Origin: Bacillota bacterium | GTDB taxonomy: Bacteria > Bacillota > Dethiobacteria > Dethiobacterales > Dethiobacteraceae | DNA length: 33,229 bases | Reading direction: 5' to 3' | Assembly (NCBI GenBank): GCA_012522335.1 | Contig: JAAYKP010000061.1 | Location: 1 to 33,229, forward strand | Part shown: positions 5,503-7,465 of the stretch, one piece after another | Layout: the number at the start of each line of letters is the position of its first letter | How positions within the stretch are numbered: position 1 is the stretch's first letter | Position numbers and translations under genes: made by a program | Notes under the pieces: generated by a model | Databases searched by the model: none | The model's input: only the letters and a program-made list of their open reading frames with translations | What the model was told of the DNA's origin: nothing

Positions 5503-6510
5503 TTACTCCAGCAGGTGTTTGTACTCCCCGTATCCCTCTGCCTCCATTTTTTCATAGGGAATAAAGCGTAAGGCCGCACTATTGATACAGTACCTGAGAC
5601 CTCCTGCTTCCGGTGGACCGTCAGGAAAGACATGACCTAAATGCGAATCTCCGGCACGGCTGCGAACTTCTGTGCGCCGCATGCCAAAACTATAATCTTC
5701 TTTTTCCATGATTGCCTCCGGCTTCAGTGGGCGGGTAAAACTGGGCCAGCCACAACCGGAGTCGTATTTAGCCGTAGAAGCAAACAGCGGTTCTCCCGTC
5801 ACAACATCCACATATATACCCCGCTCATAGTGATTCCAATATTCATTGGCAAATAGCGGCTCAGTGGCATTGTTTTGTGTTACATTATACTGCATTGGTG
5901 TCAGCTTTTGCTTTAGTTCTGCGGGACTGGGTTTCCCGTATTTTGCAGCTTTGTCAGATATTTGCGGCAGTAAGGAAAAGTCAATATGGCAGTAACCGCC
6001 GGGATTCTTTTCTAAATACCGCTGGTGATAATCCTCTGCTTCATAATAGTGCTGCAGGGGCAGCACTTCCACCACCAAGGGCTGCCGGTACTTTTCCTGC
6101 TCTCCGGCAACCACCTTTTTAATTACGGCTAAATCAGCTGCATTTTGATAATAGATACCTGTTCTGTATTGTGTACCAACATCATTACCCTGCTTATTTA
6201 CAGCAGTAGGATCAATAATGCGAAAAAAATAAGTCACCAGTTCCTGTAAACTTACCTTTTCAGGATCATAGCTGACTTCGACCGTTTCGGCATGACCGGT
6301 TGCAGCAATTTCATGATAAGCAGGGTTATGGGTTTTACCATTGGCATATCCCACACTAGTTTTGGCCACCCCATAAATACGGGCAAAGTAGGCTTCCACA
6401 CCCCAAAAACAGCCACCCGCAAACCAAATTTTCTGCAGTTTATCCTCTTGATAAGCTATACCTTGATTAGGGTTCTCCGGCAGTGCGCTTTTTCTGGGGA
6501 AAACAGGCAT
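5503..6510 (-). CDS. msrAB: Fused peptide methionine sulfoxide reductase MsrA-MsrB
   Basis: The protein reduces both S- and R-methionine sulfoxide in damaged proteins. The first half is MsrA, with catalytic cysteine in [11 protein letters not shown] near the N-terminus. The second half is MsrB, with the GCGWPSF motif and the reactive cysteine of [11 protein letters not shown] near the C-terminus. MsrB enzymes often carry two CxxC zinc pairs; I do not see them here, so this looks like the zinc-free form. No signal peptide is present, so it should act in the cytoplasm. An upstream in-frame GTG (6519) and ATG (6516) exist, but GAGGTG sits seven bases before the ATG at 6510, which I take as the start (335 residues). 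The gene is divergent from the membrane ferredoxin at 6734. Confidence 0.94.
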
Positions 6511-6651
6511 AGACATCACCTCAAATCGTGTTCTGCCCTTATCTTCTCCTAATTTTTGCTTCCTATAGCCGTTACTTCTACAAGTCTACTGCACTACCTG
6601 GCAAAAGTTAAGCAGGCTGATGATATTTTAAGAAATTAGTAAGATTTAACT

Positions 6652-6680
6652 TTGACATATTTCCTCTACGCTTATATAAT
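6652..6680 (+). promoter_or_regulatory. Consensus sigma-A promoter of the membrane ferredoxin gene
   Basis: TTGACA (6652-6657), a 17-base spacer and TATAAT (6675-6680) match the sigma-A consensus at every position. Transcription should begin around 6687, inside the operator described next, so the promoter looks built to be strong but repressible. Confidence 0.9.
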
Positions 6681-6685
6681 GCTAA

Positions 6686-6704
6686 TATACCCCCTTAGGG
6701 TATA
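6686..6704 (+). promoter_or_regulatory. CsoR/CstR-like operator
   Basis: TATACCC-CCTTA-GGGTATA is a perfect 7-base inverted repeat with a 5-base centre. It has the ATACCC-N5-GGGTAT layout known for CsoR-family repressor sites, such as the Bacillus subtilis copZA operator. It covers the expected start of transcription of the next gene. Copper (CsoR) and reactive sulfur species (CstR) are the main known signals of this family. No csoR gene is in the window. Confidence 0.65.
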
Positions 6705-6733
6705 ATCCATAATAAAAAAGCCGGAGGATAAGA

Positions 6734-7465
6734 ATGAAAAAAGATAATTACCTGAAAACAAATCGTGCCTTTAGCGTAGTGCGTAAATATGGTTGGTTGT
6801 TTACTGTGCTGGTAGCAGTGGGAGGCTTGTGGCAGCCCAAACTGGGACTTTTAGTCATTCTTATTATGGCAGCCTTAACCATTACTTCTTTCTTTACCGG
6901 CCGCTACTGGTGCGGCAATTTTTGTCCTCATGGCAGTCTCTTTGATGTTATCATGCTGCCGCTCAGCCGCAATAAAAAAATCCCCGACTTCCTTTACTCC
7001 AAAGCAATGATTGTCGGTTTTTTCATCTTTTTCATGTTTAATTTTTCCCGCAAAATCTTAAAGGTGATGCAGCTGTGGGGAGAGATGGTTTTTCTTGATC
7101 GTTTAGGTTTTGTCTTTGTCACTACTTATTTAATGGTCTTAATCGCCGGCGGCCTCTTAGCCATTTTTATCAGCCCCAGAACATGGTGCCGGTTTTGTCC
7201 CATGGGCAGTATGCAGAAGATGTCTTTTAACCTTGGCAAGGCGCTGGGTATCGCACAAAAGACTGAGCGCAGGCTCACCATCACCAATCAAGAACAATGC
7301 CTCTCCTGCGGTAAATGCGCCCGCGTCTGTCCTTTCCAGCTAACTCCCTACCTGGAGTTTTCCGGGCAAAACCAATTCGATAACATTGACTGTATTAAAT
7401 GCGCCACTTGTGTGGCCCACTGTCCTGTCGGTATTCTTTCCTTTACCAAGGATCGCTCCTCATAG
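6734..7465 (+). CDS. Membrane-bound 4Fe-4S ferredoxin-type protein (NapH/NosR/CcoG-like)
   Basis: The 243-residue protein combines membrane helices with ferredoxin motifs, as in the Fer4_5 type proteins related to NapH, NosR and CcoG. Hydrophobic segments lie at about 20-33, 37-56, 91-105 and 125-147. Two conserved polytopic motifs follow membrane segments: WCGNFCP (Cys60, Cys64) and WCRFCP (Cys152, Cys155). The C-terminal domain has two full 4Fe-4S motifs, CLSCGKCARVCP (189-200) and CIKCATCVAHCP (220-231). It probably moves electrons between the membrane and a soluble or metal substrate; the exact partner is unknown. The ATG has GGAGG seven bases upstream. It is the only plus-strand gene besides serA and has its own consensus promoter and CsoR-like operator. 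A cupric or sulfur-species reductase role is only a hypothesis. Confidence 0.82.
   Translation: MKKDNYLKTNRAFSVVRKYGWLFTVLVAVGGLWQPKLGLLVILIMAALTITSFFTGRYWCGNFCPHGSLFDVIMLPLSRNKKIPDFLYSKAMIVGFFIFFMFNFSRKILKVMQLWGEMVFLDRLGFVFVTTYLMVLIAGGLLAIFISPRTWCRFCPMGSMQKMSFNLGKALGIAQKTERRLTITNQEQCLSCGKCARVCPFQLTPYLEFSGQNQFDNIDCIKCATCVAHCPVGILSFTKDRSS

Follow-up and report, generated by a model that had tools for sequence, protein, structure and literature searches.

Which regulator controls a membrane iron–sulfur (Fe–S) protein gene of a Dethiobacteraceae bacterium (order Dethiobacterales, phylum Bacillota), and to what signal does it respond? The gene lies on contig JAAYKP010000061.1, of which we analysed positions 1 to 33,229 (33,229 nt; the window). 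An earlier note, made from the letters alone, had read a consensus promoter and a CsoR/CstR-type operator in front of the gene and had proposed a copper- or persulfide-responsive electron-transfer protein. Here we ask whether the operator is real, which regulator it belongs to and which of the two signals fits better.

A predicted CsoR-family operator at the promoter of the Fe–S gene

Direct reading of the sequence bore out the described architecture (Table 1): TTGACA-N17-TATAAT is followed at once by the palindrome TATACCCCCTTAGGGTATA (TATACCC-N5-GGGTATA), with 6 nt separating its ATACCC from the −10 hexamer. Because the palindrome directly follows the −10 region, we infer that it sits at the transcription start, which a repressor bound to it would cover. 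Read as TATAC CCCCTTAGG GTATA, it has the TAC-N9-GTA inverted repeat, G/C tracts and AT-rich flanks of a type-2 CsoR operator. It was present in none of 100 shuffles of the window, and ATACCC-N5-GGGTAT has a single exact copy in the 2.0-Mb draft genome. Divergent from the Fe–S gene is a fused MsrA–MsrB gene (window positions 5,503–6,519, minus strand), and in two loci of Tissierella (L051 and L055) the orthologue, too, has an msr-like neighbour on its upstream side, recognised by blast clustering only.

Table 1 Features of the Fe–S gene and its control region in the window
Feature	Positions	Strand	Basis
−35 element, TTGACA	6652–6657	+	Read from sequence; promoter geometry recurs before orthologues
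−10 element, TATAAT (17-nt spacer after −35)	6675–6680	+	Sequence; recurrence before orthologues
Predicted CsoR-family type-2 operator, TATACCCCCTTAGGGTATA (TAC-N9-GTA)	6686–6704	+	Sequence, conservation, promoter geometry, regulator co-variation, published consensus
Shine–Dalgarno, GGAGG	6723–6727	+	Sequence
Membrane Fe–S protein gene (ATG 6734, stop 7463–7465, 243 aa)	6734–7465	+	ORF, profiles
Cysteine motif 1, membrane-proximal, C60-x3-C64-P	6911–6928	+	No variation at C60 or C64 in 86 sequences; P65 almost invariant
Cysteine motif 2, membrane-proximal, C152-x2-C155-P	7187–7201	+	Invariant in 86 sequences
Two classical CxxCxxCxxxCP [4Fe-4S] motifs, C189–C199 and C220–C230	7298–7426	+	Profiles, alignment

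We compared the upstream regions of 75 non-redundant orthologues (44–100% identity, the window copy being one of them), mostly from drafts or metagenome-assembled genomes, with ORFs in the fetched loci called by a simple script. A box matching at 11/12 positions or better preceded 46 of the 75, compared to 0.1 in dinucleotide shuffles and 2 with a reversed pattern, and 31 boxes were perfect (12/12); owing to the shared ancestry of the sequences, these counts are not independent events. In 35 of 43 testable box-bearing orthologues, a TTGACA/TATAAT pair (at least 10/12) stood directly before the box (0.6 expected), with a modal gap of 6 nt between −10 element and box, the same as in the window. 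Nineteen orthologues had no box at 9/12 or better; four or five of these (Alkaliphilus, Tindallia, Natronincola and genome G123) carried instead a G-tract box of the Mycobacterium tuberculosis CsoR kind, here called type B, and the remainder had neither. In Desulforamulus aquiferis (L122:1150-1906), the orthologue behind a perfect box is split over three frames, reflecting frameshifts or draft errors.

Palindromes of this kind can be terminator stems, and we saw one such case in genome G005 (L274). For the window, a chance match or a terminator or attenuator part devoid of regulatory role has close to no probability: the position 6 nt after the −10 element is kept upstream of the gene in distant families, no T-run follows the palindrome in the window, and the shuffles and the conservation before orthologues led us to reject a chance palindrome. 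Conservation, promoter geometry and co-variation with regulator type (below) together strongly support positions 6,686–6,704 as a predicted CsoR-family type-2 operator. The earlier note had staked this reading on conservation of the palindrome upstream of orthologues and on a CsoR-family gene in the genome, and both were found.

The operator follows a non-copper paralogue

The genome contains two CsoR-family (PF02583) genes, L001 (G000:C22) and L002. L002 lies before copZ; it has the residue pattern Y-C-H-C and the helix motif GH, and the box at its own promoter is a different one, of type B (CCCCCC-GGTA-GGGGGAGGG). Among solved structures, M. tuberculosis CsoR is the nearest to it. L001 has D-C-H-C and the helix motif GQ and is located after aspS, with no copper gene adjoining. 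It possesses the Cys-His-Cys ligands of copper CsoR (C36-H61-C65), with Asp in place of the Tyr that precedes the first Cys in most copA/copZ-linked members examined. Across 15 L001-like members of the family this residue was D, N, S, P or G, and no copA/copZ linkage was found for L001 or its family members. L001 also has the two cysteines of CstR, C36 and C65, 29 residues apart. Since H61 (at +25) is present and L001 falls in a separate clade, we call it CstR-like in use rather than CstR; by comparison with PDB structures, its sequence is closer to copper CsoR and InrS than to CstR. In a regulator tree of 70 short sequences with rough support, it belongs to a CsoR clade whose sampled members adjoin neither copA nor copZ.

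This division holds across the family. All ten Y-C-H-C/GH genes have a downstream HMA (CopZ-type) sequence and a type-B box, versus neither in any of the 15 L001-like genes; a single outlier with GH, L326, fits neither group. In Natronincola and Tindallia the arrangement is swapped, such that the Fe–S gene has the type-B box, the non-copper paralogue has GH and the copper CsoR has GQ. Alkaliphilus fits the swapped pattern less completely: its helix motif is atypical, and one of its regulators is unread. From the family split and the swapped arrangement together, the operator follows the non-copper paralogue in both, and the repressor of the Fe–S gene is likely to be L001. GH/GQ and operator type are correlated in this data set, which falls short of a proven code, and two paralogues with two operators exchanged between lineages offer a natural test of how CsoR-family operators are kept separate. 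No CsoR gene was found in two 93%-complete drafts (G013 and G019), though boxes were present.

In several other clades, a repressor gene adjoins the Fe–S gene. These repressors are of CstR type, with C-F/Y-C, Cys-x28-Cys and no His at +25, and they group with pneumococcal CstR (SpCstR; support 94/78). Their boxes differ in spacing: a perfect box with a 4-nt spacer occurred in 12 of 12 loci with an adjacent CstR-type gene, compared to a 5-nt spacer in 30 of 34 others.

A membrane Fe–S protein, often fused to a flavin reductase

Profile searches placed Fer4_5 in two stretches of the 243-aa protein, together with two Fer4 motifs, making it a member of the Fer4_5 superfamily (PF12801; 60 bits against a Pfam gathering cut-off of 22). 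Its best curated match, NapH/MauN (TIGR02163), scored 53.5 bits over residues 120–239, well short of the cut-off of 213. The CcoG model (TIGR02745) reached 22.4 bits against a cut-off of 316.7 and covered residues 39–67 only. The protein has 12 cysteines, namely C60, C64, C152, C155 and those of two CxxCxxCxxxCP sets, all invariant or nearly so in 86 homologues. Judged by these motifs, the two sets would bind two [4Fe-4S] clusters, and the remaining four cysteines could form one further cluster or metal site. With the usual four-cysteine ligation, 12 cysteines allow at most three [4Fe-4S] clusters, so the description of the protein in the earlier note as a four-cluster ferredoxin does not hold.

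An AlphaFold model of the window protein was confident (pLDDT 93.6), and a Foldseek comparison of this model with the PDB returned no match at E ≤ 0.001; no structure or enzyme of the family was found in the databases searched. A C-terminal FAD/NAD reductase (FNR; FAD_binding_6/NAD_binding_1) was present on 40 of 69 complete orthologues (35 by both motifs and 5 by eye from an FAD-domain-like start), with the other 29 being stand-alone. The model of an FNR-fused protein was poor (pLDDT 69.6), too low for use. The window copy is of the stand-alone form, lacking the reductase of most relatives; we considered a truncated fusion and rejected it, as there is no FNR remnant downstream. In genome G148, the stand-alone form lies behind the box in an operon with a pyridine-nucleotide flavoprotein. 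This uncharacterised Fe–S/flavin reductase family is widespread in anaerobic Bacillota, and its operator now gives it a testable physiological setting.

Genes sharing the operator

Across 14 genomes of the family we identified 32 perfect boxes (7 with the reversed control pattern) and assigned genes by hand from script output, with models run on only some family members. Twenty-eight boxes precede six gene families and the other four precede other genes or are internal. The six are the Fe–S gene (10, including one contig duplicate), a small 4Fe-4S ferredoxin (7), HesB-like selenoproteins (6), CoA-disulfide reductase (CoADR) types (3), FmdB (1) and copA (1). Two of the three CoADR types are of the long rhodanese–TusA–DsrE kind by length, one of them confirmed by models. 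Operons for CcdA–ResA have one-mismatch boxes. Outside the family, the box precedes TrxB–TrxA, TrxA, a CoADR adjoining a TauE/SafE-like gene, and CcdA–TlpA; in many other Bacillota it precedes copA, csoR or copZ. In Lutispora thermophila (L059:2989-6715), the Fe–S gene is followed by a YeeE/YedE-type sulfur transporter gene and a CoA-disulfide-reductase-like gene.

In the genome of the window, a one-mismatch box (G000:C163:2293-2309; L006) lies at the start of an FmdB-like gene, probably a second regulon member. The other one- or two-mismatch boxes of this genome, in the loci read, are inside coding sequence, and no PF01521 (Fe-S_biosyn) gene was found in it.

Several genes behind the box have in-frame TGA codons. 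HesB/IscA-like proteins with this feature (GGFGUGGP) occur in L270, L276, L279, L281, L284 and L285 (family f1) and in L302 (G143). This selenoprotein family is already known; we found no description of it under an operator of the CsoR-family type. FmdB-type zinc-ribbon ORFs directly behind the box in L277 (2830-3024, minus strand), L290 (minus strand from 3013) and L293 (plus strand from 3092), representing three families, end in a conserved in-frame G-TGA-Gly-stop and are candidate selenoproteins with a C-terminal Sec-Gly. Folds downstream of these ORFs were no better than shuffles, and the same was true of two HesB-like selenoprotein controls.

Copper, thiol stress or sulfane sulfur

If copper were the signal, a copper-sensing CsoR would control a CcoG-like cupric reductase that converts Cu(II) to Cu(I) for removal by CopZ/CopA, with the fused FNR as electron donor. 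Rhodobacter CcoG does reduce Cu(II) with two [4Fe-4S] clusters, its physiological donor being unknown (review PMC7558416); the box is of the same type as CsoR operators before copA/csoR in other Bacillota, and the Cys-His-Cys pattern is retained in L001. Moreover, genome G005 carries the box before both the Fe–S gene and copA. There, the copper-type P-ATPase gene (L272) has the box (type A) and only an L001-type CsoR was found; the other paralogue has possibly taken over copper control. What lowers copper as the main signal is that the copper CsoR–copZ pair has its own operator type in this genome and family. The Fe–S operator in Natronincola and Tindallia is likewise not the type expected for their copper CsoR, the regulators adjoining the Fe–S gene are CstR-like rather than copper-like, copA appears only once in the 32-site set and the CcoG model matches just 29 residues (22 bits against 317). 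We therefore regard copper control as improbable. Of the two signals named by the earlier note, copper thus lost ground, and persulfide or thiol stress is favoured by the adjacent CstR-type repressors and by an operator shared with CoA-disulfide/persulfide reductase–rhodanese–TusA–DsrE fusions, Trx/TrxR and TauE. This gene set suggests that the Fe–S gene belongs with reactive-sulfur and thiol defence rather than with copper defence. CoA-persulfide reductase and rhodaneses are known targets of CstR in Enterococcus (PMC9405070).

A broader possibility is that the protein is a general carrier for thiol or Fe–S stress, whose regulator senses oxidants, NO, selenite/tellurite or electrophiles instead of sulfane sulfur and whose electrons go to Fe–S repair or a membrane disulfide-reducing path (CcdA–ResA). 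The box is common to ferredoxin, IscA/HesB-like selenoproteins, FmdB, TrxA/TrxB and CcdA–ResA, MsrAB is divergent beside the window gene, and CstR itself is known to react with both selenite and tellurite (PMC5016687) and to undergo crosslinking by HNO (PMC5480029). Set against this, specific sulfur functions are represented by the CoADR–rhodanese–TusA–DsrE fusions and by the TauE/SafE neighbour, and we consider a general stress carrier unlikely.

We favour, with somewhat better than even confidence, a CstR-like-controlled membrane electron transfer, fed by NAD(P)H or ferredoxin, by which sulfane sulfur or disulfides would be handled reductively. A repressor on the operator would block a strong sigma-70-type promoter at the start point. 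L001 would act in the manner of CstR: reaction of its two cysteines with sulfane sulfur (persulfide or polysulfide) or another thiol oxidant of this kind would release it from the DNA. Derepression would yield a polytopic membrane protein that has a membrane-proximal four-cysteine site besides two [4Fe-4S] clusters. Its C-terminus, to which most relatives have an FAD/NAD(P)H reductase fused, should be cytoplasmic. NAD(P)H would then supply the electrons, a role that ferredoxin or a partner flavoprotein would fill for the stand-alone form, and the protein would pass them to the membrane for reduction of sulfane sulfur or disulfides. Among anaerobes, such a system would correspond to the SQR/persulfide-dioxygenase outputs of the CstR and YrkD regulons, which depend on oxygen, and it suggests how strict anaerobes might answer reactive sulfur without oxygen-dependent enzymes. 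Several observations count against it: the +25 His of L001 and its closeness to CsoR and InrS structures, the 19 orthologues that have no box at 9/12 or better, the box before copA in G005, boxes without CsoR in two drafts, and thioredoxin, ferredoxin and IscA-like genes that fit several thiol or metal stresses.

A more specific proposal, which we put forward as speculative and rather unlikely, is that the FNR-fused form is a membrane reductase for sulfane sulfur (polysulfide/persulfide) of a new class, driven by NAD(P)H and placed under CsoR-family sulfur sensors. The type species of Dethiobacter, a related genus, reduces sulfur and polysulfide, yet no psr was identified in the draft genome of this species (PMC5609068), an observation that also speaks for the favoured model. 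If true, regulons of CsoR-family sulfur sensors would have the reductase as their anaerobic output, and it could explain how Dethiobacter-type bacteria with no psr in the draft genome reduce polysulfide. A literature search of partial coverage returned no description of the operator and Fe–S gene as a pair.

Comparison with known systems

The operator resembles CsoR type-2 operators of Streptomyces (site consensus ATATACCCCTNAGGGGTATAT), Bacillus, Listeria and Staphylococcus in its TAC-N9-GTA dyad, G/C tracts around a 5-nt centre, AT-rich flanks and repressor site at the promoter (PMC3902906). It differs in that the gene is not a copper ATPase, a chaperone or csoR, and the predicted repressor is a non-copper paralogue.

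Among membrane ferredoxins, NapH/MauN provides the best curated match and shares Fer4_5 with two Fer4 motifs, but the score is far below the cut-off, FNR fusion sets the present family apart and no nap or mau genes were recognised alongside in the loci read. CcoG/RdxA/FixG cupric reductases likewise are membrane proteins of Fer4_5 type with a CxxxCP motif and two [4Fe-4S] clusters. Unlike these, the Fe–S protein has no Ig-like domain, is often FAD/NAD reductase-fused and has different neighbours, and the match is confined to 29 residues far below the family cut-off.

The CstR/YrkD sulfane-sulfur regulons of Staphylococcus, Enterococcus and Bacillus also combine a CsoR-family repressor with CoADR/CoA-persulfide reductase, rhodanese, TusA, DsrE and TauE among the targets, and a CstR-like gene adjoins the Fe–S gene in several clades. 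In contrast to these regulons, the window-type regulator has the +25 His and the targets read here include no SQR or oxygen-dependent persulfide dioxygenase; they are instead a membrane Fe–S reductase, a ferredoxin, the thioredoxin system and HesB-like selenoproteins.
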